Source: a virus
IMG/VR virus record: IMGVR_UViG_3300011430_000026
Location: 1 to 37,305 of that record
Reading direction: 5' to 3' (one strand)
Length of the DNA: 37,305 nt
Below are positions 2,314 through 35,034 of the stretch, in pieces. Made by a program: the position numbers and the translations under genes. The stretch's first letter is position 1, and the number at the start of each line of letters is the position of its first letter. Below the pieces are notes generated by a model. That model had not been told where the DNA came from, made no database searches, and was given only the letters and a program-made list of their open reading frames with translations.

Positions 2314-2480
2314 TTGAACTGATCAGAGAGGAACTGGAGATAAGGCTGGCGGAACTGCACCGCCAGCACTTTCACGCCTCGGCGGGACTGGATGCAAAAG
2401 AGTGCGCCCGGCTTGAGCAGCGAATCAAAACGATTGAATTCATTCTAAAGCAAAATGAGAATACCAAAGCCAGTCATTGA
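2310..2480 (+). CDS. small coiled-coil protein, 56 aa
   Basis: This 56-residue frame starts at ATG 2310, overlaps the upstream stop by four bases and runs 26 bases into the following gene. Its sequence is almost entirely helical with alternating Glu/Arg and Leu/Ile, a single Cys and a His-rich turn. It resembles the short coiled-coil proteins often found next to phage DNA-binding genes. It would fill an otherwise 141-base gap, which supports it being a gene. Function unknown. Confidence 0.55.
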   Translation: MIELIREELEIRLAELHRQHFHASAGLDAKECARLEQRIKTIEFILKQNENTKASH

Positions 2481-3183
2481 AACACATGGGCCCGTCACTG
2501 TCGTGCGGGATGACCTGATTGCGGGCGGCTCAAAGATGAGATTCCTTCCCCAGGTGCTCAAGGCGATACCGGAGGAGCGGATCGTGTATGCGTCGCCTTT
2601 CTGCGGCGGGGCCGCCGTAGCCCTGTCCCTGACGTGCAAACAGCTTGGCAAAAAGGCCATCATATTCTACGCGAAACGAACTGACCTGCACATCCGGCAG
2701 CGGATGGTGAAAGCCGACGGCACAAAGATTAAATGGGTGCACCCGTTCGGGTACATGTCTCACGTCTCATCCGACGCCCGCAAGTATGCCCATCGCACCA
2801 AATCCTTTTTCCTCGACATGGGCTTCCACACGCCCGAGGCCGAGCGCCTCTACATCAGGGCCATGGCCGAAGTGAAAAAGAAAATCGGCAGTCCCGAATT
2901 CATTTGGTGTGCTGCGGGCTCCGGCATGCTCGCCATGTGCCTGGGCAAGGCCTTCCCAGATTCGCAGGTCACCGGCGTGTCCACGGGCCTCAAGGCCCTG
3001 AAGGAATCGAAACAGTTTCCCCCGAATGTGCGCCTGATCGATTCAGGCGTTCATCTCACGAAAACCTCCAAGGCGATTGCGCCGTTCCCGTGCTGTCCCA
3101 ATTACGACCTGAAGGCCTGGGAGAAGATGATCGCCCAGCCGATAACTAAATCAACCCTGTTCTGGAACGTGATGGGAATTTGA
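2455..3183 (+). CDS. PLP-dependent (fold type II) enzyme-like protein
   Basis: The 242-residue product resembles the tryptophan synthase beta / ACC deaminase / D-cysteine desulfhydrase superfamily. A VVRDDLIAGGSKMR segment (about residues 16-29) matches the 'K-R-D-D ... G-G-N-K-x-R' block, so Lys27 would be the Schiff-base lysine. SPFCGGAAVALSL (47-59) corresponds to the S-N-H-A helix region. AAGSGMLA (153-160), before VTGVSTG, corresponds to the phosphate-binding Gly/Ser loop. The protein is about 90 residues shorter than usual for this superfamily and lacks the exact SNHA motif. It could act on an amino acid, or have been recruited for DNA or peptide modification; the substrate cannot be read from the sequence. 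Confidence 0.65.
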   Translation: MRIPKPVIETHGPVTVVRDDLIAGGSKMRFLPQVLKAIPEERIVYASPFCGGAAVALSLTCKQLGKKAIIFYAKRTDLHIRQRMVKADGTKIKWVHPFGYMSHVSSDARKYAHRTKSFFLDMGFHTPEAERLYIRAMAEVKKKIGSPEFIWCAAGSGMLAMCLGKAFPDSQVTGVSTGLKALKESKQFPPNVRLIDSGVHLTKTSKAIAPFPCCPNYDLKAWEKMIAQPITKSTLFWNVMGI

Positions 3184-3184
3184 T

Positions 3185-3352
3185 ATGAGTGCATTGCAAC
3201 AGGCTGAGGATGAGGCCATCGCCGCCCTGGTAAAGTGCATCGAAGGATTCACGCCCAGCCAGCGGGAGAAATTCCTGAGTGAATTGAAATCAAGAATCTG
3301 CGTGTATTGTGGCGCATTGAATCCCCGGTGCTGGTGTCAACATGACGAATAG
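3185..3352 (+). CDS. small cysteine-rich protein, 55 aa
   Basis: ATG 3185 lies one base after the TGA of the PLP-enzyme gene (a TGA-T-ATG junction). The first ~38 residues are acidic and helical. The last 15 contain CVYCG followed by CWC, a C-x2-C-x6-C-x-C pattern with a nearby His, suggesting a zinc-binding C-terminus. The frame is open and fills the gap before the terminase genes. Other short proteins in this window also end in cysteine-rich tails. Function unknown. Confidence 0.55.
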   Translation: MSALQQAEDEAIAALVKCIEGFTPSQREKFLSELKSRICVYCGALNPRCWCQHDE

Positions 3353-3383: not shown

Positions 3384-4136
3384 GTGCCTAGAACGTATAA
3401 GAAAAAAGAACTGCCCCTGGAATTCATCCTGAAGGTGCACGGCGCATTTATTCATGGCGCAGATTACGCGGAAGCCGCCCGCATCCTCGACATGTCTCCG
3501 GCGAATTTGAACAATCAAATAGGCCGGCACGCCCAACTCCGCCTGGCAAAGGAGATGGCCATGGAATGGAAAAACCAGAAGCCACAAACCTTCCGTGATT
3601 ATGTGTTCCGGTCCCTCACGCCCGAGGCGCAGAAGGTGTGGGATGAAATCCAGTTTTGGGAAGGAAATACGAATGGGCCGCAGGCAGTTAATAAAATCCT
3701 CGCCAACCAAACTACCCATATGCGCCAGGAATTATTTGTGCATGCCCTGGTCATGTCGAATTACAACATCTCAGAGGCCCTGCGCACGGTGGGCACCTCG
3801 TATACCGTTTTCCAGAAATGGTCTGCCGATCCCGAGTTTCGCCTGCTCATTGAAGAGATTGGCTGGCACAAGAAAAACTTCTTTGAGAATGCATTGATTG
3901 ACCTTGTTGCAATGCGCGTTCCCCAGGTGGTCCTGCATGCGAATAAAACAGTGAATGCCGACCGGGGCTATGGTGATCGTGTCGCAGTGGACATGAATGC
4001 GAAAGTGGAAACAGGCATCAACCTGGACGAGCTTGACCTGCCCCTTGAAATAAAAGTGCAGGTGCTGGAAGCCATGCGCAATCGCAAGGAACAAAAGCAA
4101 CTGCCCGCCGCAAATGGGGAGATAATTGAAGTGTGA
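3384..4136 (+). CDS. terS: terminase small subunit-like DNA-binding protein
   Basis: This is a 250-residue protein starting at GTG 3384. The first ~50 residues contain an HTH-like unit (DYAEAARILDMSPANLNNQI), and a second one lies around residues 125-150 (NISEALRTVGTSYTVFQKWS). The protein ends in a charged tail. Two helix-turn-helix-like segments, the size, and position two genes before the large terminase support a small terminase that recognises packaging-site DNA. The family match is by pattern and context only. A variant of the recurrent AGATAATA box (AGATAGAATA) lies just before the start. Confidence 0.65.
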   Translation: MPRTYKKKELPLEFILKVHGAFIHGADYAEAARILDMSPANLNNQIGRHAQLRLAKEMAMEWKNQKPQTFRDYVFRSLTPEAQKVWDEIQFWEGNTNGPQAVNKILANQTTHMRQELFVHALVMSNYNISEALRTVGTSYTVFQKWSADPEFRLLIEEIGWHKKNFFENALIDLVAMRVPQVVLHANKTVNADRGYGDRVAVDMNAKVETGINLDELDLPLEIKVQVLEAMRNRKEQKQLPAANGEIIEV

Positions 4137-4158
4137 GTGAAAGCGAGAGCAAAAAGAA

Positions 4159-4989
4159 ATGACCACGCAAGAATACCAATCTATCGTTGGAACACTCCGT
4201 GCCGAGCTGGCCCGGGAACAGGAACTGCGCAGGAGATCTGATGAGTTCCGGGAGCGCATTAGAGGGGAGAATCGGATGCTCAAGGATCGACGGGGCCATC
4301 TTAGCGCAATAGTCGAGACCCTCCGCGCTGAGAATGCTGCACTGCATGGGCAGTTAGCCGAGTCGCGAGAGGAGTTGGCGGGATTGAAGGAACTTGTAGT
4401 CGATGGCACGAAGTCGCGGGCAAATGCACAGGCGCAATATGAAACCCTCCGCACAGAGCTGGCGGCGAAAACCGAAGCCAATCAGCTTTTAAATAAAAGC
4501 CTTGCTACTGCGCATTGCGGTTTATCCAGCCTCCGTGCTGAGAATGCGGAGTTGAGAAATGGCTTTCCTTGCATTGGTCAAGACCCATTGAAGATGGAAA
4601 AACGTGATGGGTTTGAAGAATCATTTGTTCGATTAAAGTCAGGATTGAACATCCAGCAGAAGGGCGTTCCAGACCAAACCGCACTTGTTTGGCGTATCGA
4701 CATAAGTCGGGTCAGTGACGAGGTAATTATTCAAACCGGTCGGGCCGAATTTAGACTCAAGCAGGTAGAACAACTCAAGGCGGAACTGGCTCTAAAAGAA
4801 AAAGCAATGTCCGTCATCGATAAAGCAGTTGGAGACGCGGGAGACGAGGAGATGTCAGTGCTATGCGAGCGGCTGACCACGGAGCGCGACACCGCGCTGG
4901 CGGAGGTGGAACGGTTGAATCTCCAACTTCATCCACCAGAGTGCAAGATATGTGGTTCCTGTCATTCCGGAGACTGCGCAACAATTTAG
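4159..4989 (+). CDS. long coiled-coil protein with C-terminal zinc-knuckle-like tail
   Basis: This 276-residue protein is dominated by Glu/Leu/Arg-rich heptads (about residues 5-135 and 195-255), interrupted by a short globular stretch around 140-190. The last 18 residues read PPECKICG-SCHSGDC-ATI, a C-x2-C-x3-H-x3-C arrangement like a small zinc knuckle. The same tail, changed at only 4 of 18 positions, ends the protein at 6616-6798 on the other side of the large terminase. ATG 4159 overlaps the stop of a nine-codon GTG frame (4133-4162), which may couple its translation to the small terminase. It may be an elongated scaffold or packaging accessory protein; that is inference. Confidence 0.65.
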   Translation: MTTQEYQSIVGTLRAELAREQELRRRSDEFRERIRGENRMLKDRRGHLSAIVETLRAENAALHGQLAESREELAGLKELVVDGTKSRANAQAQYETLRTELAAKTEANQLLNKSLATAHCGLSSLRAENAELRNGFPCIGQDPLKMEKRDGFEESFVRLKSGLNIQQKGVPDQTALVWRIDISRVSDEVIIQTGRAEFRLKQVEQLKAELALKEKAMSVIDKAVGDAGDEEMSVLCERLTTERDTALAEVERLNLQLHPPECKICGSCHSGDCATI

Positions 4990-5037
4990 ATAGGTAAACT
5001 GCGCTTACAAACGCCCTCAGCGGCGGTAAGTGAGCAG

Positions 5038-5075
5038 TTGACCCGGGCCGCTCGGGCAGATTATGTTCCCGGCCC
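5038..5075 (+). promoter_or_regulatory. GC-rich hairpin leader of the large terminase gene
   Basis: The 86-base gap 4990-5075 has no gene. GGGCCG (5045-5050) pairs with CGGCCC (5070-5075), and the stem ends directly at ATG 5076. A TTGACC at 5038-5043 could be a -35-like element, but no convincing -10 follows at the right distance. The hairpin would hide or expose the start codon; this is a structural guess. Confidence 0.3.
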
Positions 5076-6608
5076 ATGCTGAGTGAATTCGAATCACCCT
5101 CGCGCACCGCGCCTCAGGTACGTATCAGGGAAGCCCCACTCATCGCTTCCATCTGCCGGCAATCCTTCTTTCACTTCGTCAAGGAATTCTGGCCCACCAT
5201 CATTGATGAAACTCCGGTGTGGAACTGGCATGTCAAATACATCTGCGATGAAATGCAGATAGTGGCCGAGCGGGTGTTCCGGGGCCTGCCCAAGCTATAT
5301 GATTTAATCATCAACGTACCACCAGGCTCAACCAAGTCCACCATTGTCTCGCAGATGTTTCCCGCCTGGGTGTGGACGCGCATGCCCCAGGCTCAATTCG
5401 TGTGCGCATCGTATGCCAAGCAATTGTCCCTGACCAATGCCCTCTTCATGCGGGACATTGTGAATTCGGAAAAGTATCAGGAGTGCTTCCCAGGCCTGAT
5501 CGAACTGAGGCAGGATGAGAAATCAAAAAGCCTGTTCAAAAACACCAGGCGAGGCTGGCGCTTCTCAACCGGTGTGCGCGGCGCAGTGACGGGATACCAT
5601 GGCCACTTTCAATTGATCGATGATCCACTCAATCCCGAGGAATCATTTTCAGAACTGGATTTGAAAATGGTGAACCGGTGGATGGAGTCCACGCTGCCCA
5701 TGCGCAAGGTGTCCAAGGACATCACGCCATTGATTCTGGTGATGCAACGCCTGCACCAGGCCGACCCGACCGGCGAGATGCTGCACAAATCGAAAGGAGA
5801 CAGGGTCAAACACATCTGCATCCCAGGCGAGTTGACCGAGGACGTGAAGCCGGTTGAACTGAGGGAGTATTACGTGGATGGGCTGTTTGATCCCATCCGA
5901 TTGCCACGCAAATTGTTCCCCGAAATCAAGAGCATGCTGGGCGAGTACGGCTTTGCTTCGCAGATATTGCAGACGCCCATTCCATTGGGAGGCGGCATGT
6001 TCAAGACCGGCTTCGTGAAGATTCACAAGGGCCCGCCCCCGCGCATGGTGCGCCTGTGCCGATCCTGGGACAAGGCGGGCACGCCCGACGAGGGCGCATG
6101 GTCCGCGGGTGTGCTCATGGGCGTGGATGCGCTGGGCCATCCGTGGGTGCTGGATGTGTGCCGCGGCCAGTGGGGCGCGCAGGAACGCGAGGCGATGATC
6201 CTGCACACCGCGGCCTTTGATGCCGCGGGCAAGTTCGGGATCATCACGGCCTTGCACGGCGAGGATCAATATGTTGTGATTCGTGTTGAAATCGAGCCCG
6301 GCTCAGGTGGCAAGGAATCAGGCGAAAATACGGTGCGAAACCTGGGCGGGTATAGTGTGCTTGCGTATCATCCTACAGGCCCGAAGGAGGCGCGGGCGCA
6401 ACCCTTCGCCTCGGCCATGGGTATCCAGAACCACGTTCACGTGATTGATGCGGACTGGACCAAGGACTTCCTCGAGGAGTATCGATTCTTTCCCTTCGGC
6501 CGGTGGAAGGACCAGGTTGACGCTGGCTCAGATGCCTACAATCATCTTTTCCGTGCGCCAAGAATTGCTGGTGGAATTCGGCAGATGCTCGCGACGGCGC
6601 ACAGATAA
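5076..6608 (+). CDS. terL: terminase large subunit (packaging ATPase/nuclease)
   Basis: This 510-residue protein powers DNA packaging into the procapsid and cuts the concatemer. N-terminal ATPase: Walker A-like PPGSTKST at residues 82-89 and Walker B FQLIDDPL at 178-185. C-terminal RNase H-like nuclease: first acidic residue in SWDKA (Asp332), second in VEIEPGSGG (Glu406), third in DQVDAGSDAYNH (Asp482/Asp486). Length and motif order are typical of the family, so it looks intact. The gene ends AGA TAA inside an AGATAATA box. Its neighbours on both sides encode proteins with matching C-terminal zinc-knuckle tails. Confidence 0.95.
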   Translation: MLSEFESPSRTAPQVRIREAPLIASICRQSFFHFVKEFWPTIIDETPVWNWHVKYICDEMQIVAERVFRGLPKLYDLIINVPPGSTKSTIVSQMFPAWVWTRMPQAQFVCASYAKQLSLTNALFMRDIVNSEKYQECFPGLIELRQDEKSKSLFKNTRRGWRFSTGVRGAVTGYHGHFQLIDDPLNPEESFSELDLKMVNRWMESTLPMRKVSKDITPLILVMQRLHQADPTGEMLHKSKGDRVKHICIPGELTEDVKPVELREYYVDGLFDPIRLPRKLFPEIKSMLGEYGFASQILQTPIPLGGGMFKTGFVKIHKGPPPRMVRLCRSWDKAGTPDEGAWSAGVLMGVDALGHPWVLDVCRGQWGAQEREAMILHTAAFDAAGKFGIITALHGEDQYVVIRVEIEPGSGGKESGENTVRNLGGYSVLAYHPTGPKEARAQPFASAMGIQNHVHVIDADWTKDFLEEYRFFPFGRWKDQVDAGSDAYNHLFRAPRIAGGIRQMLATAHR

Positions 6609-6610
6609 TA
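6603..6610 (+). promoter_or_regulatory. AGATAATA box before ATG 6616
   Basis: Exact 8-mer ending five bases before the start (spacer GAGGC). It contains the large terminase's last codon and stop (AGA TAA). Confidence 0.5.
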
Positions 6611-6615
6611 GAGGC

Positions 6616-6798
6616 ATGGAACCTGTTGCTGGAATCCGGATAATCAGAAGATACTTGAATATGCAGGCGCCTTTTAACAAGTGGCCCGTTTGCTATCAGA
6701 GATTGGCCAGACATATAGATAAATTGGACCAGGAAGTGAATCCTCCTGAGTGTAAAATATGTGGCCATTCCCATACTGGAAATTGTGCTACCATTTGA
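6616..6798 (+). CDS. small protein with C-terminal zinc-knuckle-like tail, 60 aa
   Basis: ATG 6616 follows the AGATAATA box by five bases; upstream in-frame starts would lie inside the terminase gene. The N-terminal ~40 residues are basic and helical with one Cys. The C-terminus reads PPECKICG-HSHTGNC-ATI, matching 14 of 18 residues at the end of the 4159-4989 protein, including the C-x2-C-x3-H-x3-C ligands. At DNA level many of the differences between the two tails are in third codon positions, which points to selection on the peptide. It may bind the terminase or DNA; the function is not established. Confidence 0.65.
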   Translation: MEPVAGIRIIRRYLNMQAPFNKWPVCYQRLARHIDKLDQEVNPPECKICGHSHTGNCATI

Positions 6799-6814: not shown

Positions 6815-7747
6815 ATGCCCAAGACACCTGAAGATTTAAAGAAGTCCCGCGATGATCGAAAGCGCAATCTTGCCGTATTTGATGGCACGATTCCCGATTC
6901 GATCATGCGCCATGCCAAGCATAAGAAGGCCACGGACCTTATGATTGCGGGCGAGCGCGCCTACCGTGAAGGTGAGAAATGGGTGGGTGACGAGAACGGG
7001 CGCACCCTCGCGTGGCGGGCAAAGGCTTTCGGCGCATCAGGCAAGATGCAGAGGGGCAAGGGCGGCACACTCTCGCGATTCCCACAGAACATCGGGCGCA
7101 CCTTGCTCCTGTTCCTCACAGACGAGGGCAACACGGTGTTCGATCCATTCGCCGGGCATAACTCGCGCATGGAGCTTTGCTATCGCAATGGGCGCAATTA
7201 TATTGGTTGCGACATCTCAGCAGAATTCATGGAGATGAATCGAGCACTGGCAAAGCGTATGCTGTACCAGTCGAACCATGCGTTGTTCTCGAATCCCCGC
7301 ACCATCACATTGCACGAAACGGACAGCCGCAACGTGCCAGTGGAGGACGAGTGCGCGGACTTCACTATCACCAGCCCGCCCTATTGGGACATCGAATACT
7401 ACGGGGACGAAGCCGGGCAGCTTGGCCTGGGCAAGTCATACGGTGAATTTCTGGACGGGCTGTATGATGTGATGAAGGAAAACTTTCGCGTGCTTCGCCC
7501 AGGATCATTCTGCGTGTGGTGCGTCAATGATTTTCGAAAGAATGGGCGCTTTTATTCGTACCATGAGCACACGGCTCGCACCTTGCGCGCCGCGGGCTTT
7601 TACCAGCATGATATTGCCATCGTTGATTTTGGTGGATCGATCAGGCAGAATTTCATGAATCAGGTTCTGGAGCAGAGAATTTTGCCAAAGAGGCATGAGT
7701 ATGCGCTCATCTTTCGCAAGCCTGAACTGAATGGGAATGACACCTGA
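6815..7747 (+). CDS. DNA N4-cytosine/N6-adenine methyltransferase
   Basis: This is a 310-residue SAM-dependent DNA amino-methyltransferase of the N6_N4_Mtase type. DPFAGHNSR (about 110-118) is motif I / SAM binding, followed by GRNYIGCDIS as motif II. TSPPYW (about 186-191) is catalytic motif IV; the SPPY form is usual in N4-cytosine enzymes but also occurs in N6-adenine ones. The order I then IV, rather than the beta-class order, is noteworthy. ATG 6815 is preferred over GTG 6761 because of the AGATAATA box. No cognate endonuclease is adjacent, so it is an orphan enzyme that could protect phage DNA or mark it for packaging. Confidence 0.85.
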   Translation: MPKTPEDLKKSRDDRKRNLAVFDGTIPDSIMRHAKHKKATDLMIAGERAYREGEKWVGDENGRTLAWRAKAFGASGKMQRGKGGTLSRFPQNIGRTLLLFLTDEGNTVFDPFAGHNSRMELCYRNGRNYIGCDISAEFMEMNRALAKRMLYQSNHALFSNPRTITLHETDSRNVPVEDECADFTITSPPYWDIEYYGDEAGQLGLGKSYGEFLDGLYDVMKENFRVLRPGSFCVWCVNDFRKNGRFYSYHEHTARTLRAAGFYQHDIAIVDFGGSIRQNFMNQVLEQRILPKRHEYALIFRKPELNGNDT

Positions 7748-8718: not shown

Positions 8719-9186
8719 ATGAAGCTGCGTTTATCTTTTTCGGGAGTGCTCATCCCTTTGGGCCTCGGGTTGCTTTTTTGGATTGTGTTTGCGTTCCTTT
8801 TCTTCCTGGCCAAGGCCAATGGGGCGCAGATTGTTTACGACACAAATTCTGCCGTAAGGGCAGAGGCCGGCACGAATCAAATTGGTCCAGCCACCAGTGT
8901 GGATGTTGAGGGGCCTGTCAAAATCGTGTGGTATATCCCGGGCGTGACCAATCAACTGCACCTGTCGATTCAGACCAATCTCATTACGAACTGGGTCACC
9001 ACGAAGCAACTCGCCGTGGTGCGCTCGAATGTCGTCAGGGTGAAGCAGGTGGGCACGGTGCAGACCAACCGCACCATGTTCGTGTCCTATGGCAAGACCA
9101 CGAACAGTCCGCTGGCCCTGCTGGATGTGCTGGGCGAGACTGACGGCGCTCCCGAGAGCAGGATTGTAAACGTAACAAAGGAATAA
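8719..9186 (+). CDS. exported or membrane-anchored protein, 155 aa
   Basis: The first ~36 residues are a long hydrophobic signal or anchor (basic MKLR start, Leu/Phe/Ile-rich core, then AKANGAQ, a plausible signal peptidase site). The rest alternates Thr/Asn/Val in a beta-rich pattern without known motifs (for example VDVEGPVKIVWYIPGV). It has no enzymatic signature. The product probably sits in the periplasm or at the inner membrane surface. Its start is supported by the AGATAATA box seven bases upstream. Confidence 0.65.
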   Translation: MKLRLSFSGVLIPLGLGLLFWIVFAFLFFLAKANGAQIVYDTNSAVRAEAGTNQIGPATSVDVEGPVKIVWYIPGVTNQLHLSIQTNLITNWVTTKQLAVVRSNVVRVKQVGTVQTNRTMFVSYGKTTNSPLALLDVLGETDGAPESRIVNVTKE

Positions 9187-16863: not shown

Positions 16864-17751
16864 GTGAAACGAACCAAAATCCAAAAGACGCAAATGGAGG
16901 TGCAGTTGGGTTCCTGCTGTGCGCGAGATTCCGACCACGATGGCAATTGCCCTATTCATTCCTCGCCAGGCGTATTCAGGCAAAAAGCATTGCAGGAAAT
17001 TGTATCGAGTGAGGGTGCGGTAATGCCCATCACATACGGGCGCATGGGCAACTTTCTGTTCCAGGCAGCAACCGCAATCGCGTATGCCCTCAAGCATGAC
17101 ATGCCCTACACGATGCCGTTCGCCACGAACAACCCACAGGGTAATCCTCTTTACCTTCAACACCTGGTGCGTGAGGACTTCAATCCTGACCTGCCTCAAT
17201 TCCTCATTCAGGAGAGCGGGAATCCGTACCAGGAGTTGCCACCACCCCGGCTCAGAGTCTCGAACGTGATTCTGGACGGATACTGGCAGACGGAAAAGTA
17301 TTTCAAGGAATATCGCGGGGCGATCCTTCAGGCTTTCGGTTTTCCGTGGGAACCAACCAAAGGAACAGTTTCAGTGCATGTGCGCCGGGGCGATTACCTG
17401 CGCCTGCCGAAGAAACATCCGAAGGTGCCTAAGGATTGGTATGAGAGGGCCATGGCGGAATTTCCCCGCTCTCAATTCCGGTTCTTCTCAGATGACATCA
17501 ATTGGTGCATGGGCGCTTTCGGCCATCGTGGTGATTGTTTTTTCTCATTCAACAAAACTCCGGAGGAGGACCTGATTGGTATGGCGGAATGCGAGCACCA
17601 TATTTGCTCCGCCTCGACTTTCTCATGGTGGGGTGCGTGGCTGAATCACAACCCAAACAAGCGGGTGGTCATGCCAAAACTATGGTTGGTGCCTGGCTGG
17701 GGCGGGTTTGATTCGAAGGACGTTGTACCTGAGGAATGGGAGCGAATGTGA
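16864..17751 (+). CDS. GT11 alpha-1,2-fucosyltransferase-like glycosyltransferase
   Basis: The 295-residue protein has GRMGNFLFQAATAIAYA (59-75), the N-terminal GT11 block, and HVRRGDY (172-178), the GDP-fucose-binding signature. A later segment with CSASTFSWWGAWL matches the family's third block. It would transfer fucose or a related sugar from a GDP-sugar to a glycan. The first ~53 residues are extra compared with typical GT11 enzymes and contain Cys18, Cys19, His25, Cys29 and His32, a possible metal site. Starting at ATG 17023 would remove this extension. It opens the glycan cassette. Confidence 0.8.
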   Translation: MKRTKIQKTQMEVQLGSCCARDSDHDGNCPIHSSPGVFRQKALQEIVSSEGAVMPITYGRMGNFLFQAATAIAYALKHDMPYTMPFATNNPQGNPLYLQHLVREDFNPDLPQFLIQESGNPYQELPPPRLRVSNVILDGYWQTEKYFKEYRGAILQAFGFPWEPTKGTVSVHVRRGDYLRLPKKHPKVPKDWYERAMAEFPRSQFRFFSDDINWCMGAFGHRGDCFFSFNKTPEEDLIGMAECEHHICSASTFSWWGAWLNHNPNKRVVMPKLWLVPGWGGFDSKDVVPEEWERM

Positions 17752-18431
17752 GCATCAAAGCTGAGGAATACATTGACGCGGGCCTGGCCCTTGTGCAACT
17801 GGGCCGTTTGTTGCAGAAGGTATATCCGAAGGTGGAGAATGAGGGCAGCCAGTTCGATGAGGATAAAATCCTCGCCGAACTTCTGCCCGGTAAGGGCATC
17901 TATGTTGACGTGGGCGCGAACCATCCGAAGGAGTGTTCGAACACCTGGCGATTGTATCAGCGAGGCTGGCGCGGTATGCTCATCGAACCTTTGCCCGACG
18001 CGTGGCCTGCGTTGCTGTTGGAGCGCAGGGAGGATCGGCTCTGCCCCGTCGCTGCAAGCAACAGAGATGGCTTTGCAACCTTGCGTGTGTGTCGGTCGGT
18101 CAGTTCGTTGCGTGATGATTGGAAGATAAACGCGGAGGACGGTATTATTGTGCGCACAGCAACGCTCTCCACCATCCTTTCGATGTATGGGAATGAGTTT
18201 GATTTCTCGAAAACGCAACTGCTTTCCATTGATGTCGAGGGGCACGAAAAGGAAGTTCTTGAGGGCATGCCGGATTGGTTTCGCCCGGATGTGATCGTGC
18301 TGGAATACCGCGACTATGATCCGGCGAATTACGGCAAGGACATTTCAGACGGATGGAAGCGTCTGCTTGTGCACTGGGGCTATCGCAAGCACCATGAAAA
18401 TCCCCTGAACCAAATCTGGAAGCGCAAATGA
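17748..18431 (+). CDS. FkbM-family SAM methyltransferase (first copy)
   Basis: GTG 17748 (GTGA overlap, GGGAG five bases upstream) is preferred; ATG 17736 is also possible. IYVDVGANHPKECSNT contains the FkbM SAM-binding motif with D-V-G-A-N, and LLSIDVEGHEKEVLEGM is the second conserved block. FkbM enzymes O-methylate sugars and lipids, often within polysaccharide clusters. The protein is full length (about 227 residues) with no membrane segment. Its neighbours on both sides support a sugar substrate. Confidence 0.8.
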   Translation: MSIKAEEYIDAGLALVQLGRLLQKVYPKVENEGSQFDEDKILAELLPGKGIYVDVGANHPKECSNTWRLYQRGWRGMLIEPLPDAWPALLLERREDRLCPVAASNRDGFATLRVCRSVSSLRDDWKINAEDGIIVRTATLSTILSMYGNEFDFSKTQLLSIDVEGHEKEVLEGMPDWFRPDVIVLEYRDYDPANYGKDISDGWKRLLVHWGYRKHHENPLNQIWKRK

Positions 18432-18616
18432 AAACTGACGAGGAGATTATAGCAATCGAATCCACCGATAACGTGAGTTGCTACAAAATCGGATTGGCGT
18501 GCCGAGAAACAGCGGACAGCAGCAGCGAGGTAGGCGACGAAATCGACAGGGGCCTTATCCTGATGAAGCGCCTCCACGCAAAAGGGTTCAAAATCGTAAA
18601 ACTGAAGGAGGGATGA
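18428..18616 (+). CDS. hypothetical protein, 62 aa
   Basis: ATG 18428 overlaps the FkbM stop by four bases, and the end overlaps the next gene by four. The acidic N-terminal half has two Cys; the C-terminal half forms a helix and strand (LILMKRLHAKGFKIVKL). No family recognised. It is probably a small co-expressed accessory of the glycan cassette. Confidence 0.5.
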   Translation: MKTDEEIIAIESTDNVSCYKIGLACRETADSSSEVGDEIDRGLILMKRLHAKGFKIVKLKEG

Positions 18617-19329
18617 AAATCACCGCATTCTGCCCAACACTGAATCGCCCGGAGTTGCTTGGGCGCCTCATCAAGTGTTTCGAGCACCAGACGTATGAGA
18701 ACCGGGAACTGATCATCCTTGATGATGGCGGGCAATACAAGAATCAGTGTGGTGACCGGTGGGAACTCGTGTCCGTCCAGAGGAGGTTCCGGAGCCTGGG
18801 CGAGAAAAACAATGCTGCGATTGCAATGGCTTCGTTTGATAGTGAGGCTGTCCTTAAGGCGGACGATGATGACATCTATATGCCGTGGTGGTTCGAGTCC
18901 ATGGCGGAGGCGTTCGAGCGCGGAGCATGGGTGCAGCCCAGGTATGCCATTGATTTCGTAGAAGGTGAATGGGTGCAGGTTGCCACGCATAATCCAAAAA
19001 ACACTAATTTCTGCTATCACGGATGTTGGGGGTATTTGCGTTCACTTATTGAGAGAACAGGGGGCTATCACCCGGAATATGCCGGAGACGACCAGGAGTA
19101 TGATCGCCGGCTGCGTGCATTGGGAATGCATTCAGTGGGAATAAAAGGGCCTCCTTTCTACTGGTATAATCGACCCTTGCCGGGCCGGATAAGCACTCGC
19201 GGAGGATCGAAGCAGGATTATGTGGATACGGGAATCAATGTAAAGTATGTGGGCAAAGTTCCTGAGTGGAAGGGCGAGAGGGTTTGGGAACGATCCATCC
19301 CGACAAGACAGATAGCGCGCTTTTGGTGA
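18613..19329 (+). CDS. GT2-like glycosyltransferase
   Basis: ATG 18613 has GGAGG directly upstream and overlaps the preceding stop. The N-terminus TLNRPELLGRLIKCFEHQTY, then LIILDDGG (34-40), is the nucleotide-sugar binding start of GT-A family 2 enzymes. LKADDDD (81-87) provides the metal-binding Asp cluster. A later CWGYLRSLIERTGGYHPEY segment fits the acceptor side. At 238 residues it is a soluble single-domain enzyme with no transmembrane helix. Donor and acceptor are unknown. Confidence 0.8.
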   Translation: MKITAFCPTLNRPELLGRLIKCFEHQTYENRELIILDDGGQYKNQCGDRWELVSVQRRFRSLGEKNNAAIAMASFDSEAVLKADDDDIYMPWWFESMAEAFERGAWVQPRYAIDFVEGEWVQVATHNPKNTNFCYHGCWGYLRSLIERTGGYHPEYAGDDQEYDRRLRALGMHSVGIKGPPFYWYNRPLPGRISTRGGSKQDYVDTGINVKYVGKVPEWKGERVWERSIPTRQIARFW

Positions 19330-19330
19330 T

Positions 19331-19888
19331 ATGAAATTGCAATCAAGAAACGGATTCCCCGCCCTGCTTAAGCATATGAATTTGCTGGGCGAGATGGCAG
19401 AGATTGGTGTGGCTGAGGGATACTTCAGCCACATGCTTTTGGAGAACCTGCCGGGCATGGTCTACCAAATCGATCCATGGAAGATTCTGGACACGCCCGG
19501 GTTCAGTGGGCACGGTGAGGCCACGAATAAGGAGCAGGAGGCACGCTATCAACGCATGCTCCAGGCCGCGACGCGCTACCACGGCCGGTGTATCGTCATG
19601 CGCATGACGTCAGAGCAGGCAGCCTCTGAATTCAAGGACGGGCAACTTGATTTTGTTTATATCGACGCCATTCACACCTATGAGGCATGCCGGGATGACA
19701 TCGCGTTGTGGTATCCAAAAGTGAAAAGCGGGGGCATACTCGCCGGGCATGATTATCTGGACGGTGTGTTCCACGGGCAGTATTATGGCGTAAAGCAAGC
19801 TGTGAAGGAGTTTGCCTGGACGATAAAGGCTACAATCAATTCAACGAAGGAGCCAGACTGGCCTTCGTGGTGGGTGGTGAGGCCGTGA
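19331..19888 (+). CDS. class I SAM methyltransferase (Methyltransf_24-like)
   Basis: ATG 19331 follows the stop after one base (TGA-T-ATG). EIGVAEG (24-30) is the SAM-binding loop; YQIDPW and, later, FVYIDAIHTYEACRDDI and GGILAGHDY fit the Methyltransf_24 pattern of sugar or small-molecule O-methyltransferases. The length of 185 residues is normal for a single Rossmann domain. Within the cassette it would most simply methylate a glycan. Confidence 0.75.
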   Translation: MKLQSRNGFPALLKHMNLLGEMAEIGVAEGYFSHMLLENLPGMVYQIDPWKILDTPGFSGHGEATNKEQEARYQRMLQAATRYHGRCIVMRMTSEQAASEFKDGQLDFVYIDAIHTYEACRDDIALWYPKVKSGGILAGHDYLDGVFHGQYYGVKQAVKEFAWTIKATINSTKEPDWPSWWVVRP

Positions 19889-20559
19889 CCAAACTCGTCA
19901 CCATCGCGACGCCGAATATTCAGGAGCAGGCAAATGGATTCCTGATCAACCAGGCGATGTATGCTGTAGAGTGGGGATATGTTTTCGAGAGGGTACAATC
20001 AGTAGCCTGGTCTCAACTGCACCCCTCCTTTTCCAAGGTGTTCGAAATAGACCGGGCTTTGGCAGAGGGATTTGAATTCGTAATATGGGCGGACGCGGAC
20101 GTGGCTTTCATGGACTTTAATGCTGACCTGACCAAGATACTGAAGCCAGAACATTTCTTGACGGGCTATCAGCAGAACAATTGGAAAACGTGGAAGTATA
20201 TCTGTAACGGTCTGCTGGTGATTCGCAATTGTGAGGGTGCTCGAAACTACGTCACCGAGTGGGCGGATCATTGCGTGAATGGATGTCCTCTCACGCAACC
20301 CGGCATCCGTACCATGATCAGGGACCACCCTTGGGAGCAGTGGTCTTTCGATGCGCTGATCCGGCACACAAATTACCACGGCATATATGCCGCGACCGCG
20401 CAGGAGATTGGCTGTTTCTGCCCTGAGATTTGGCACGATGGAATCATTTGGCAGGCGGGCATGCCGACGATTCATATGGCTGGTCCGGCCTCATGGGAGA
20501 AACGTGCCGATGTGTTCGAAAAGATTTACAGGAAAAAAGTCATCAGGAAAAAGGTATGA
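19885..20559 (+). CDS. GT-A glycosyltransferase (GT34/GMA12-like)
   Basis: GTG 19885 forms a GTGA overlap with the previous stop. WADADVAFMD (68-77) carries the D-x-D metal and nucleotide-sugar motif. ICNGLLVIRNC and an EQWSFDALI segment follow, as in galactosyltransferase GMA12/MNN10-like folds. The protein is 224 residues, soluble, with a Lys/Arg-rich tail. Family placement is by motif only and could shift to another GT-A family. Confidence 0.65.
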   Translation: MTKLVTIATPNIQEQANGFLINQAMYAVEWGYVFERVQSVAWSQLHPSFSKVFEIDRALAEGFEFVIWADADVAFMDFNADLTKILKPEHFLTGYQQNNWKTWKYICNGLLVIRNCEGARNYVTEWADHCVNGCPLTQPGIRTMIRDHPWEQWSFDALIRHTNYHGIYAATAQEIGCFCPEIWHDGIIWQAGMPTIHMAGPASWEKRADVFEKIYRKKVIRKKV

Positions 20560-20711
20560 GTGCCGACGATCTGGAACGATACACGGAAGACGCCTACCAG
20601 CAGGGGTTGAAGCATGGTAAGGAAGAATACTGGTGGTATGGTGCCGTGGTGGGGTTTTGTGTGGGTTGGCTTCTGGCAGGACTTGTGATCCTTATTATAA
20701 AGGTATGCTGA
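20556..20711 (+). CDS. small single-span membrane protein, 51 aa
   Basis: ATG 20556 overlaps the preceding stop by four bases. The N-terminal 28 residues are acidic and helical; a long hydrophobic helix (WWYGAVVGFCVGWLLAGLVILII) runs almost to the C-terminus. It overlaps the next gene by seven bases. It may anchor a glycan enzyme at the membrane; this is inferred from position only. Confidence 0.55.
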   Translation: MSADDLERYTEDAYQQGLKHGKEEYWWYGAVVGFCVGWLLAGLVILIIKVC

Positions 20712-21340
20712 TTTCATTCCCTGAGATGTTCAGGCGCCATCGCATCAAGTCCAAAGGCGCGTTGCACCTGGGCGCGAACCTGGGCCAGGAAGCCCAGACT
20801 TATCGGAGCCTTGGTATTCAACGTGTGGTGTGGGTTGAGGCGCTTCCGAAAGTTTACGAGCAGTTGCGCCGAAACGTGGCCCGCTTTCCAGACTCCATCG
20901 CCTTGCTTGCCTGCATCAGTGACAAGGATGGCGCCATTGTCGATTTCAATGAGGCTTCGAACGAGGGGCAAAGCTCATCCCTGCTCGAATTCGGCACGCA
21001 TGCGAAAGCGCATCCGGACACCACGTTCATCGCCCGGCACAAAATGATAACACAGCGAGTGGACACCCTGTTCAAAGAGCAGGGCCTGGAAGCGTGGCTT
21101 CCGACCGGTTCCTTCCTCAACATCGACCTTCAGGGTGCTGAACTGATGGCGCTGCGCGGTCTTGGGGAGGTCCTGACCCGTTTTGACTACGCATACGTGG
21201 AAGTGAACGAGGAAGAGCTTTATACCGGGTGTCCGTTGGTGGGCGACATCAATGCTTTCATGTTCGAAAAGGGATTTGTTGGGCTGGAATCCAAAATGAC
21301 AAAATGGAAGTGGGGGGACCGGCTGTATGGGCGGAGATAA
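20705..21340 (+). CDS. FkbM-like methyltransferase (second copy)
   Basis: This is a 211-residue protein from ATG 20705. HLGANLGQEAQTY (21-33) is the SAM loop and FLNIDLQGAELMALRG the second FkbM block. The ERVVWVEALP-type strand between them is also present. It differs clearly from the copy at 17748, so it is not a recent duplicate. It ends GRR with AGA TAA inside an AGATAATA box. Confidence 0.75.
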   Translation: MLISFPEMFRRHRIKSKGALHLGANLGQEAQTYRSLGIQRVVWVEALPKVYEQLRRNVARFPDSIALLACISDKDGAIVDFNEASNEGQSSSLLEFGTHAKAHPDTTFIARHKMITQRVDTLFKEQGLEAWLPTGSFLNIDLQGAELMALRGLGEVLTRFDYAYVEVNEEELYTGCPLVGDINAFMFEKGFVGLESKMTKWKWGDRLYGRR

Positions 21341-21342
21341 TA
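21335..21342 (+). promoter_or_regulatory. AGATAATA box before ATG 21348
   Basis: Exact 8-mer spanning the second FkbM gene's AGA TAA end; five-base spacer CAGGC, nearly identical to the GAGGC at 6611-6615. Confidence 0.5.
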
Positions 21343-21347
21343 CAGGC

Positions 21348-21674
21348 ATGCGGGAATTTAAAGTGGTGCAGTGGAGAGCGAGAGACGCTTTGCCCTTTTG
21401 GATTGTGGGTGGGTTGTGCATTCTGGTTTGCACTTTGGTTTACGTCACTCGGCAACAACCTATGTTGATTTGGCAGCCGAAGTGCGTTGTGGGTGTCGCA
21501 TTTCGAAAGCCCCTGTGGCGGTCCTGGCAGGTTCGATTCTGCCACGGCTATCAGTTCACTCCGGACGGTAAGGAAAAGCATTTCTATCATTTTCCGAAAT
21601 TTTACCACAACGATGTGGCGAAACTGTTGGAGGCACATCCGGTTGTTATTCCGGCCAATTTAACTAACCGATGA
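21348..21674 (+). CDS. small membrane-anchored protein, 108 aa
   Basis: After a basic start (about 16 residues) a hydrophobic helix (FWIVGGLCILVCTLVYV) is followed by ~70 residues rich in His, Phe and Lys (KEKHFYHFPKFYHND). The topology is probably N-in with the C-terminal part outside the cytoplasm. No family recognised. ATG 21348 is supported by the AGATAATA box. Confidence 0.55.
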   Translation: MREFKVVQWRARDALPFWIVGGLCILVCTLVYVTRQQPMLIWQPKCVVGVAFRKPLWRSWQVRFCHGYQFTPDGKEKHFYHFPKFYHNDVAKLLEAHPVVIPANLTNR

Positions 21675-22465
21675 CCCTGACCACCATCACTCCTTATTGG
21701 GACCGTCCGGAACAACTTGCCCGGTGGGTGGAGAATATGAAAGGATGTTCTCATCCGGAGGTCCAACATTTCGTTTATTTTGTAGGTGAGGAGCAATCAC
21801 CTATTGAATTAAGTCGATCTGACAATTCAATTTATCCATTTCGATTCTATGATCGACCAGCAAGCATTGGTCATGTTCACAATCGGGGTGCAGTTGACGC
21901 TAGCACCGAATGGATCATGAAGCTGGACGTGGACTGCCTGCCCAATCTTTGGTTCTTCACTGAGCTTTTGAAGGTGCTCGAAACAGCCGGGCACAAGGAA
22001 TGGTTCAACTGCGGCATGATCAATGTCAACCAGCACGCTTCGGAGAAGTTTCTTTCCCAGCCTCTGACGAACGATGCTTACATTGAAGTCATGGCGCATC
22101 GTCGGATGTATTGCGCCGGGCATCCCAACCCACACTCCACCAACTTCGTTTGCAGACGATCCGACTACCTTGACCTGGGAGGATGTGACGAGCGGTTCAG
22201 GGGATGGGGTTGGGAGGACTACCAGCAAATTTATGCGCTGGAGAAACACCAGCAGGGCAGGAACCCACTGCCGGGCAAACTCGACATCTCGAATGTGGCG
22301 AGGCGTTGCCGGGATGAAATCTCACGCAGGAAGGCGCTGGAGCTTTTTGAACGCTCGCCCTGGCTCTGCCTGCTGCACCACTACCATGCGCCGGTGTTGA
22401 GCAAGATGGACACGTCCGTGCATAATCTTGAAGTGCTTTTCGACTACATCAAAACCCATTCATGA
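21671..22465 (+). CDS. GT-A glycosyltransferase (GT2/GT7-like)
   Basis: This is a 264-residue protein. TTITPYWDRPEQLARWV begins a nucleotide-sugar binding fold, DVD at 86-88 (KLDVDC) is the metal motif, and WGWEDYQ (about 178-184) is the acidic acceptor-side motif shared with beta-galactosyltransferase C-terminal domains. The start overlaps the preceding stop by four bases. It is the last enzyme of the glycan cassette. Confidence 0.75.
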   Translation: MTLTTITPYWDRPEQLARWVENMKGCSHPEVQHFVYFVGEEQSPIELSRSDNSIYPFRFYDRPASIGHVHNRGAVDASTEWIMKLDVDCLPNLWFFTELLKVLETAGHKEWFNCGMINVNQHASEKFLSQPLTNDAYIEVMAHRRMYCAGHPNPHSTNFVCRRSDYLDLGGCDERFRGWGWEDYQQIYALEKHQQGRNPLPGKLDISNVARRCRDEISRRKALELFERSPWLCLLHHYHAPVLSKMDTSVHNLEVLFDYIKTHS

Positions 22466-31807: not shown

Positions 31808-33415
31808 ATGAAAACACTATTGATCCGAAACGAAGCCGGCAAAATCCAGAAGGACGTGATTGTCGGCCTGCACTTCAACCTGGCCGCGGTTAAAATCCGG
31901 CAGGATACTTTAGAAGGCAGGGCCTACACCGTGGTCCCGATGGTGATGCTGGTGGAAGGCGTTCACAACGGTTCGGGCGGACCGCTCTATTATTCCGAGA
32001 GTGAACTGGGCAAGACGCCGCAGGCCTGGGACCACAAGCCTGTTGTGGTTTATCATCCCGAGCGAAATGGACAGGGCATCTCAGCCTGCCGCCCTGAGAT
32101 TCTGAACAATCGCAAGGTGGGCCTCATTATGAACACTGCCTTTAAAAAAGGCCGGCTGACGAGTGAGGCGTGGATTGATATGGAGCGGGCGGCGGTTGTG
32201 GATGAGCGCATCGTGCCCGCGATTCAGAATCAGGAGATGATGGAACTTTCCACGGGCGTATTCGTGGATGTGGACAGCACGCCGGGCGAATGGAAAGGCG
32301 AGAAGTACCAGGGCCTGGCAATGAATTATCGCCCGGACCATCTCGCGTTGCTGCCTGACAAGGTGGGCGCCTGCTCATTGAAGGATGGCGCGGGCTTCGT
32401 GCGCAACGAGGGACGCCCTGACGGATTCGTAAGGTTCATTGATGAGATGCGCAAGCAATTTGGTGGCGCGATTGAAAATGAAATGTCCCATTCCAATACA
32501 TCCGCCGCCATTCGGGCGTTGCTGGACAAAAAACTGCCAGTGGCAAAAAACGGTCCTATCCCATGGATTGCGGATGTGTATTCAAATTTTTTCATCTATG
32601 AATGGGATGGCAAACTCTTTCGGCTCAGTTACACGGCTTCCGATACTGGTGAAGTTTCGTTGGGTGATGAAACTCCAAAGGAAGTGCGTCGTGTAACAGA
32701 ATACCGAACCGTCTCGGGCGCCTTTGTAGGCAACCTAGACCAAGACAAGGAAATAAATATGGACAAAACGAAAATCATTGTCGCTATTCTCGCAGCAAAT
32801 GCGGGTTGGTCTGAGAAGGACAAGCCCACACTTGAGGCGATGAGCGACAAGCAACTGGAAATCATCCACAAAGGCATCACGCCACCAACCCAGAACAATC
32901 AGCCTGCGCCTGATCCCAAGAAGGTGCTGGTGGATGGGATCATTGGTAATGGAACGGGATGGACCGAGGCCGACCGTGAGAAATTGAACGGGTTGTCGGA
33001 AGACATGCTCAAGCGCATCACCACGCAGAAGGCAACATCGAATGCGCCCGTGCAGAATCAGCAAACCACACAGCAACCGAACGTGGTCACGCTCACAGCC
33101 GAGCAGTTCATGGCGGCGGCACCACCTGCGATTCGCGACGCCCTGCAAACGAACATGAAGGCCATCGAGGATGAAAAGACCTCACTGGTGGACAACATTC
33201 TGAAGAATCCACAAAACCAGTTCACGAAGGAGGAACTGGCAGCATACGGTTTGCCTCAGTTGCGCAAACTCGCCAACCTCGTCAAGTCCAAGGCCCCGGC
33301 GTTCAACTTCTCAGGCCTCGCGCCTGTCACAGAGAACGCGCAAGGTTCAGACGACGACGAGGAAGAGCCTGTCCTCAACATGCCTGCGATGAATTTCGAA
33401 AGGGCAAAGAAGTAA
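31808..33415 (+). CDS. DUF2213-type prohead protease with C-terminal scaffold
   Basis: The first ~215 residues match phage DUF2213 proteins, proposed prohead proteases (LEGRAYTVVPMVMLVEGVHN; WDHKPVVVYHPE; MELSTGVFVDVD). The C-terminal ~200 residues are helical and Gln/Pro/Glu-rich with an acidic run (SDDDEEEPVL), as in scaffolding proteins. An in-frame ATG at 32759, six bases after AAGGAA, would give a separate 218-residue scaffold (Met318), like the nested scaffold genes of other phages. The protein would process the capsid during maturation. Confidence 0.7.
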   Translation: MKTLLIRNEAGKIQKDVIVGLHFNLAAVKIRQDTLEGRAYTVVPMVMLVEGVHNGSGGPLYYSESELGKTPQAWDHKPVVVYHPERNGQGISACRPEILNNRKVGLIMNTAFKKGRLTSEAWIDMERAAVVDERIVPAIQNQEMMELSTGVFVDVDSTPGEWKGEKYQGLAMNYRPDHLALLPDKVGACSLKDGAGFVRNEGRPDGFVRFIDEMRKQFGGAIENEMSHSNTSAAIRALLDKKLPVAKNGPIPWIADVYSNFFIYEWDGKLFRLSYTASDTGEVSLGDETPKEVRRVTEYRTVSGAFVGNLDQDKEINMDKTKIIVAILAANAGWSEKDKPTLEAMSDKQLEIIHKGITPPTQNNQPAPDPKKVLVDGIIGNGTGWTEADREKLNGLSEDMLKRITTQKATSNAPVQNQQTTQQPNVVTLTAEQFMAAAPPAIRDALQTNMKAIEDEKTSLVDNILKNPQNQFTKEELAAYGLPQLRKLANLVKSKAPAFNFSGLAPVTENAQGSDDDEEEPVLNMPAMNFERAKK

Positions 33416-33933: not shown

Positions 33934-35034
33934 ATGGACTTTATTCTAAATGGACAGGCCCACGGGTCAGTGGCAAAGCGGCTCCTGGCCGTCAACGGTG
34001 ATGTTAGTGTCCTGCGCCCTTGGGTGGGCAGAAAGGGCAGGTGCTACGTCGCCCAGTTTGTTCGTGATCCAGAGACGGGCGAGGTCGTTCGGAACAAGGA
34101 AGGCAGGGCCATCGAAAAGGCCGTTTTCATCGGCAACGACCGGGCTACCTTGCGCCGGGACGAATGGAAATGGATCGATGACGAAGTGGTTATCGCCGCC
34201 AAGGAACGGCTGCGCCTCATCGCCGACCTTAGAGGCGCCGGGCTCACATTGACCGTGCCCGGAGGCATGGCCAAGACAATGATCGAAACCGCGGTGATCG
34301 GAGACATCACGCCGGCGACGATCAGCATGGACCCTGCTCGCAAGAGTGAGGGCGACCGGCCGGAGTATGACTTCAGCCTGACGCCTTTGCCGATCATCCA
34401 CAAGGACTTCCAGTTCACGCTTCGGCAGATTCTGGTTTCCCGTGGCAGTGGAACGCCCCTCGATAGCACCATGGTCCGGCTCGCCGGGCAGCGTGTCGCG
34501 GAAGAGGCGGAGAAACTTGCGATTGGCACCTCAGGCACCTACACCTACGGTGGCGGGACAATCTACGGACTGACCAACTTCCCGACCCGGGGCACGCAAA
34601 CACTCACCTCGCCCGAGGCTTCGGCCTGGACTCAACAGACGACCGTGGAAGAAATCCTCGAGATGCGCCAGACCGCATACGACCGGCACGCACTCGGGCC
34701 TTATGTGTTGTATGTGAGCAAGGGCTGGGCGCAATACCTGGACCTGGATTACAGCGACACCAAGGGCGATAATACACTACGGGAGCGCATCCTCGCCATT
34801 GATGGCATCTCTGAAATTCGAGTCCTCGACCACCTCGCGGACTTCCAAATTGTCATGCTTCAACTGTCCTCGGACACGATCCGGCTGGCAATCGGCATGG
34901 ACATCACCACGTTGCAGTGGGAAACCGAAGGCGGCATGGTGCAAAACTTCAAGGTGATGGCCATGATGGTGCCTCAGATTCGCGCCGACATAAACGACAA
35001 CAACGGATTGATCCACGGTGCTGTCGCTGCGTAA
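33934..35034 (+). CDS. major capsid protein (HK97 fold, encapsulin-like)
   Basis: The 366-residue protein has the N-terminal helix and strand pattern of encapsulin-like HK97 capsid proteins (EWKWIDDEVVIAAKERLRLIADL). A central segment has IYGLTNFPTRG, and a C-terminal part binds neighbouring subunits (GPYVLYVSKGWAQYLDLDYS; MVQNFKVMAMMVPQIRADI). It follows protease and decoration genes in standard order and is full length. It is expected to form the icosahedral shell. Confidence 0.85.
   Translation: MDFILNGQAHGSVAKRLLAVNGDVSVLRPWVGRKGRCYVAQFVRDPETGEVVRNKEGRAIEKAVFIGNDRATLRRDEWKWIDDEVVIAAKERLRLIADLRGAGLTLTVPGGMAKTMIETAVIGDITPATISMDPARKSEGDRPEYDFSLTPLPIIHKDFQFTLRQILVSRGSGTPLDSTMVRLAGQRVAEEAEKLAIGTSGTYTYGGGTIYGLTNFPTRGTQTLTSPEASAWTQQTTVEEILEMRQTAYDRHALGPYVLYVSKGWAQYLDLDYSDTKGDNTLRERILAIDGISEIRVLDHLADFQIVMLQLSSDTIRLAIGMDITTLQWETEGGMVQNFKVMAMMVPQIRADINDNNGLIHGAVAA

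Follow-up and report, generated by a model that had tools for sequence, protein, structure and literature searches.

Two genes that flank the large terminase subunit gene (terL) of an uncultivated virus encode proteins with unrelated bodies and a shared, cysteine-rich C-terminal tail. The window, the whole stretch of DNA analysed here, is a 37,305-base record from IMG/VR. The tail is best viewed as a compact C-terminal module that probably forms a loop around one zinc ion (Cys-x2-Cys-x3-His-x3-Cys) and would cap the last helix of two helical proteins, both encoded by lineage-specific accessory (cargo) genes situated in variable slots either side of terL. We infer that the module reached both genes by partial gene duplication or recombination, a spread that would be old enough for silent sites to have diverged while selection kept the peptide afterwards. 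Its most likely use is as a common contact surface, with both proteins binding one common partner or pairing with each other. We place the probability of this reading as a whole at about 0.5.

The longer of the two proteins is a 276-residue coiled-coil protein (4159–4989, plus strand) encoded between the probable terminase small subunit gene (terS) and terL; its tail, PPECKICGSCHSGDCATI, occupies 4933–4989 together with a TAG stop codon. The shorter is a 60-residue protein (6616–6798, plus strand) with the tail PPECKICGHSHTGNCATI, which occupies 6742–6798 together with a TGA stop codon. The tails are nearly identical, as originally predicted: 14 of 18 residues agree, among them each of the four putative metal ligands (C-x2-C-x3-H-x3-C). 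One of the four mismatches is the sole extra cysteine, which belongs to the coiled-coil tail and is not kept in the 60-residue protein. A two-sequence BLASTP search extends the match to 27 residues (15/27 identical, 24/27 positive, 43.9 bits, E 1e-11), and the likeness, with no sharp stop at residue 18, tapers off in the last part of the helix before the tail (...VERLNLQLHPPECKICGSCHSGDCATI in the coiled-coil protein and ...IDKLDQEVNPPECKICGHSHTGNCATI in the 60-residue protein). Searched against the whole record, the 60-residue protein matches only itself and the coiled-coil tail (E 4.6e-9); the record holds two copies of the tail, with no third copy showing movement as a unit.

Among 1.48 million pairs of open-frame C-termini from about 105 records, the tail pair scores 97 and is near the top, the background without obvious repeats being ~50; the other high-scoring pairs look like repeats, paralogs or antisense frames, as classed by eye only. 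If short C-x2-C-G-x2-H-x-G-x-C loops are common, two independently acquired zinc tails could in principle have come to look alike. The loop pattern does occur elsewhere, as CDICGLYHSGSC inside a large protein of locus L020, and a looser pattern resembling C-x2-C-G-x2-H-x-G-x-C-x3-stop is found in five unrelated stretches. Convergence is nonetheless very unlikely in view of the score against background and of the PPECKICG and the CATI at the exact C-terminus that both tails also have in common. The L020 protein (around 8908–8943 of that locus) is very long and has many separate cysteine motifs, of which CDICGLYHSGSC is one.

The tail is constrained as a peptide. Its 18 codons differ at 17 nucleotides, distributed 3/2/12 over codon positions 1, 2 and 3, with four residue changes. 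Neutral substitution simulated up to 17 differences would be expected to alter about 10 residues, and under each of three transition biases 0 of 20,000 runs altered four or fewer, a contrast inflated by the tail stretch having been picked after the fact for its matching residues and measured on one pair. At the DNA level the tails are 69% identical; outside them identity drops to background, with 48% over the 27 bases just upstream, 33–37% in longer upstream stretches, and 20% downstream. The claim that the differences fall mainly at third positions and that selection acts on the peptide is borne out, and the best reading of the codon pattern is that selection would have maintained the tail since the module reached both genes.

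The likeness does not extend to the bodies. With the tails removed the two proteins align no better than shuffled sequences (645 of 1,000 shuffles score as well), which agrees with the prediction that the rest of each protein is unrelated; by the same test no likeness outside the tail, and no full-length paralogy, was found. The main rival to a shared contact module is plain fragment paralogy, in which one of the two genes derives from the other: the 60-residue gene would be a reduced or reworked copy of the 3′ end of the coiled-coil gene, or vice versa, its remainder having been exchanged, and the tail would serve in folding with no common partner. It draws on the match of helix end and tail in the same order and equally far from the stop codon, on the location of the genes 1.6 kb apart on one operon-like strand, and on the absence of either gene from any other genome searched. 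However, the remaining 33 residues of the 60-residue protein have no trace of the coiled-coil protein, and third-position GC contents (GC3) of 0.53 for the coiled-coil gene and 0.41 for the 60-residue gene suggest separate histories. We regard such an origin as possible, and as an explanation to be taken seriously, but not as the probable one.

The 60-residue protein is predicted by a single-sequence AlphaFold model to form a helical hairpin (residues 3–20 and 24–41) followed by the tail, with a pLDDT of 74.5 overall and about 61–66 in the tail; a Foldseek search with this model returned no meaningful fold match (best E 3.6). Its GC3 is the lowest of the 30 genes listed, the others ranging from 0.53 to 0.74 with the coiled-coil gene at the low edge. 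The codon usage of the frame is also poor (log-odds −0.08 versus an antisense ORF median of 0.00), so that the case for a real gene depends on the shared peptide and on a start element. This element, AGATAATA, is located at 6603–6610 on the plus strand, 13 nt before the ATG, and recurs before other starts: across the window it is found just before start codons nine times on the plus strand and never on the minus strand (listed plus-strand positions 6603, 6798, 8704, 9677, 13604, 15929, 16849, and 21335), and AGATAAT occurs 13 times where 2.15 would be expected. AGATAATA is also present 77 times on the terL strand versus 15 in about 104 further loci, some of which overlap, which makes it a candidate signal for promoters or starts in this group of phages. 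The poor codon score and low GC3 could alternatively mean that the frame is not a gene and that the match is a remnant, which the third-position pattern of the differences and the AGATAATA start element render extremely unlikely; on account of these same two features the frame most likely represents a true gene whose composition is foreign.

For the coiled-coil protein, the single-sequence AlphaFold model contains helices at residues 3–82, 87–134, 200–226, and 229–257, with low confidence at 137–202 and at the C-terminus. In both models a helix directly precedes the tail, which is itself of low confidence. Searches against profile libraries (Pfam, PHROGs, NCBIfam) and PDB sequences give weak generic coiled-coil matches only. 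A scaffold identity was considered and rejected, as the match to PF06810 (E 8.5e-4) is below the cut-off and a separate protease/scaffold-like gene is located at 31808–33415.

The gene at 3384–4136 (plus strand) is conserved, being 30–46% identical to genes that precede terL in relatives, and is the probable terS, its product having a weak direct match to small terminase in PHROGs (E 0.26). The large terminase subunit gene lies between the two tail genes at 5076–6608 (plus strand; phrog_38, 9.6e-71), and the 60-residue gene is followed by a DNA methyltransferase gene at 6815–7747 (plus strand; PF01555, 3.8e-18) with its ATG at 6815–6817. Later plus-strand genes code for the portal, a Mu F-like head protein, the protease/scaffold-like protein, and the capsid. 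Elsewhere in the window, the 2455–3183 protein matches pyridoxal-phosphate enzyme/threonine dehydratase profiles (PF00291, 2.5e-10; phrog_7093, 2.9e-35), which is unusual for a phage, and a run of genes at 16864–22465 between head genes includes a family 11 glycosyltransferase and methyltransferases.

In the relatives terS and terL are conserved and the interval between them varies. Among 33 relatives with both genes it ranges from 24 bp (L053) to 7,006 bp (L005), and its cargo changes from locus to locus; L030, L031, and L033, for example, carry a QueC-like gene, named by eye from its sequence. The corresponding interval of the window (4137–5075; 939 bp) holds the coiled-coil gene and is one more state of this variable cargo slot. 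In L004 a large protein follows TerL immediately on the downstream side; in the window, more than 5 kb of other genes lie between TerL and the portal. Promoter-like signals (8 versus 3.7 expected) and terminator-like signals (6 versus 4.8) are present, and none cleanly frames the tail genes. The changing cargo in the 33 terS–terL loci, none with these genes, and the absence of the tail and both proteins from relatives support their interpretation as putative accessory genes. The best reading as a whole also draws on the atypical GC3 of the 60-residue gene and on the recurrent AGATAATA before its start.

Because the terS–terL interval is a variable cargo slot, adjoining terL is poor evidence, if any, of a packaging role. 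The original prediction had proposed that the tail is a tag for a packaging partner placed beside terL, and this is not borne out, the slot being variable in the 33 loci and no relative having the tail or either protein. A docking tag for the terminase or portal would fit two same-strand genes that flank terL, and it has a precedent in form in the internal proteins of T4 and the T-even phages, a diverse set of small proteins with only a short capsid-targeting sequence in common (PMC3012670). It is unlikely, however, since relatives that have a terL of 50–58% identity, and that share the upstream gene, are without the tail, and the site is a cargo slot.

About 90 terL-related loci were compared, 13 in IMG/VR from a TerL search, and 80 in IMG/VR (some being the same contigs as the 13) plus nine genome-contig loci from an alignment-based search. 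Neither protein and no tail was detected by tblastn in these loci from other phages and prophages, and the recurrence of the tail on unrelated proteins beside terL that had been suggested was not found there. A tail profile run over 24,042 frames of relatives gave a best non-self E of 0.25. Neither the tail nor the proteins were found in 50 whole records, the second part of this search having no positive control of its own and the same tool finding the tail within the window record. IMG/VR yielded no close relative by protein, tail alignment, or degenerate DNA patterns, and GTDB genome contigs no match to the tail alignment. With tblastn against GenBank phages the 60-residue protein has chance-level matches only, and Pseudomonas phages contribute a stretch resembling coiled coil at E 0.07 or worse; Pfam, PHROGs, and NCBIfam profiles and a PDB sequence search give nothing for the 60-residue protein or the tail. 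The outcome that had been named as refuting the tag idea, a tail restricted to this genome, is what every collection searched gave, by scans that require exact short peptide words, which a diverged tail could escape, or that cover isolates only. A literature search for the exact C-x2-C-x3-H-x3-C spacing found no paper.

Other candidates were set aside. A match in L050 (E 0.005) was rejected as it is in a non-coding frame with a stop. An 82-residue protein with the motif CPPHCELC after a helix is encoded in the terS–terL slot of L044 (3089–3337) and L045 (2743–2991); its weak likeness to the tail was noticed post hoc, is reached by 2 of 1,000 shuffles, and is left as chance, with the unbiased tail profile missing it. 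Within the window, a 55-residue protein (3185–3352) also ends in a cysteine tail, ICVYCGALNPRCWCQHDE, with no significant similarity to the two tails, and has a weak match to PF25122 that is below the cut-off.

All four C/H positions are retained in both tails and the extra cysteine of the coiled-coil tail is not, which supports a metal-binding reading, and the tail probably binds zinc, as one ion. Of the proposal that it is a docking or metal-binding tail, the metal-binding part is therefore supported and packaging docking beside terL is not. The term "zinc knuckle" used for it is loose: the C/C/H/C positions are present and the spacing is not classical. Like the CCHC zinc knuckle of the retroviral nucleocapsid type (Pfam zf-CCHC), the tail is a short Cys/Cys/His/Cys loop with glycines and probably one metal ion, but it has no Pfam match and is present as a single copy at the very C-terminus. 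The classical CCHC spacing is C-x2-C-x4-H-x4-C, which the C-x2-C-x3-H-x3-C of the tail excludes by definition, although the tail may work like a knuckle. Curated profile searches gave no match of the tails to zf-CCHC or any other zinc-binding family, only the rubredoxin-like PF21349 appearing below the cut-off (E 0.05–0.21), and with the low-confidence tail models this leaves the fold of the tail unsupported.

The tail genes resemble phage morons and other cargo genes of structural operons in lying between conserved core genes while syntenic relatives lack them, but no convincing promoter or terminator of their own was found. Encapsulin cargo-loading peptides are likewise C-terminal tags, and the phage capsid also matches Linocin_M18; we know of no sequence resemblance between these peptides and the tail, HK97-fold capsids generally may match the Linocin_M18 model, and the parallel is purely a lead. 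The capsid-like protein is encoded at 33934–35034 (Linocin_M18, 2.1e-7; DUF6260, 4.4e-24). The T4 capsid-targeting sequence is similar to the tail in being one short segment on otherwise unrelated small phage proteins. It sits at the N-terminus and is cleaved off by the prohead protease, whereas the tail is C-terminal and cysteine-rich. By this analogy the tail could be a portable C-terminal targeting tag on unrelated cargo, for example into the head, and a metal-binding counterpart of the T4 sequence, which we consider a long shot.

The tail pair is a clean example of selection limited to a short C-terminal peptide, and in this phage group a gene's place next to terL is little guide to a packaging role. 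If the tail were such a portable tag, the phage would be using a very small metal-binding module to direct cargo proteins that are otherwise unrelated to a single destination.
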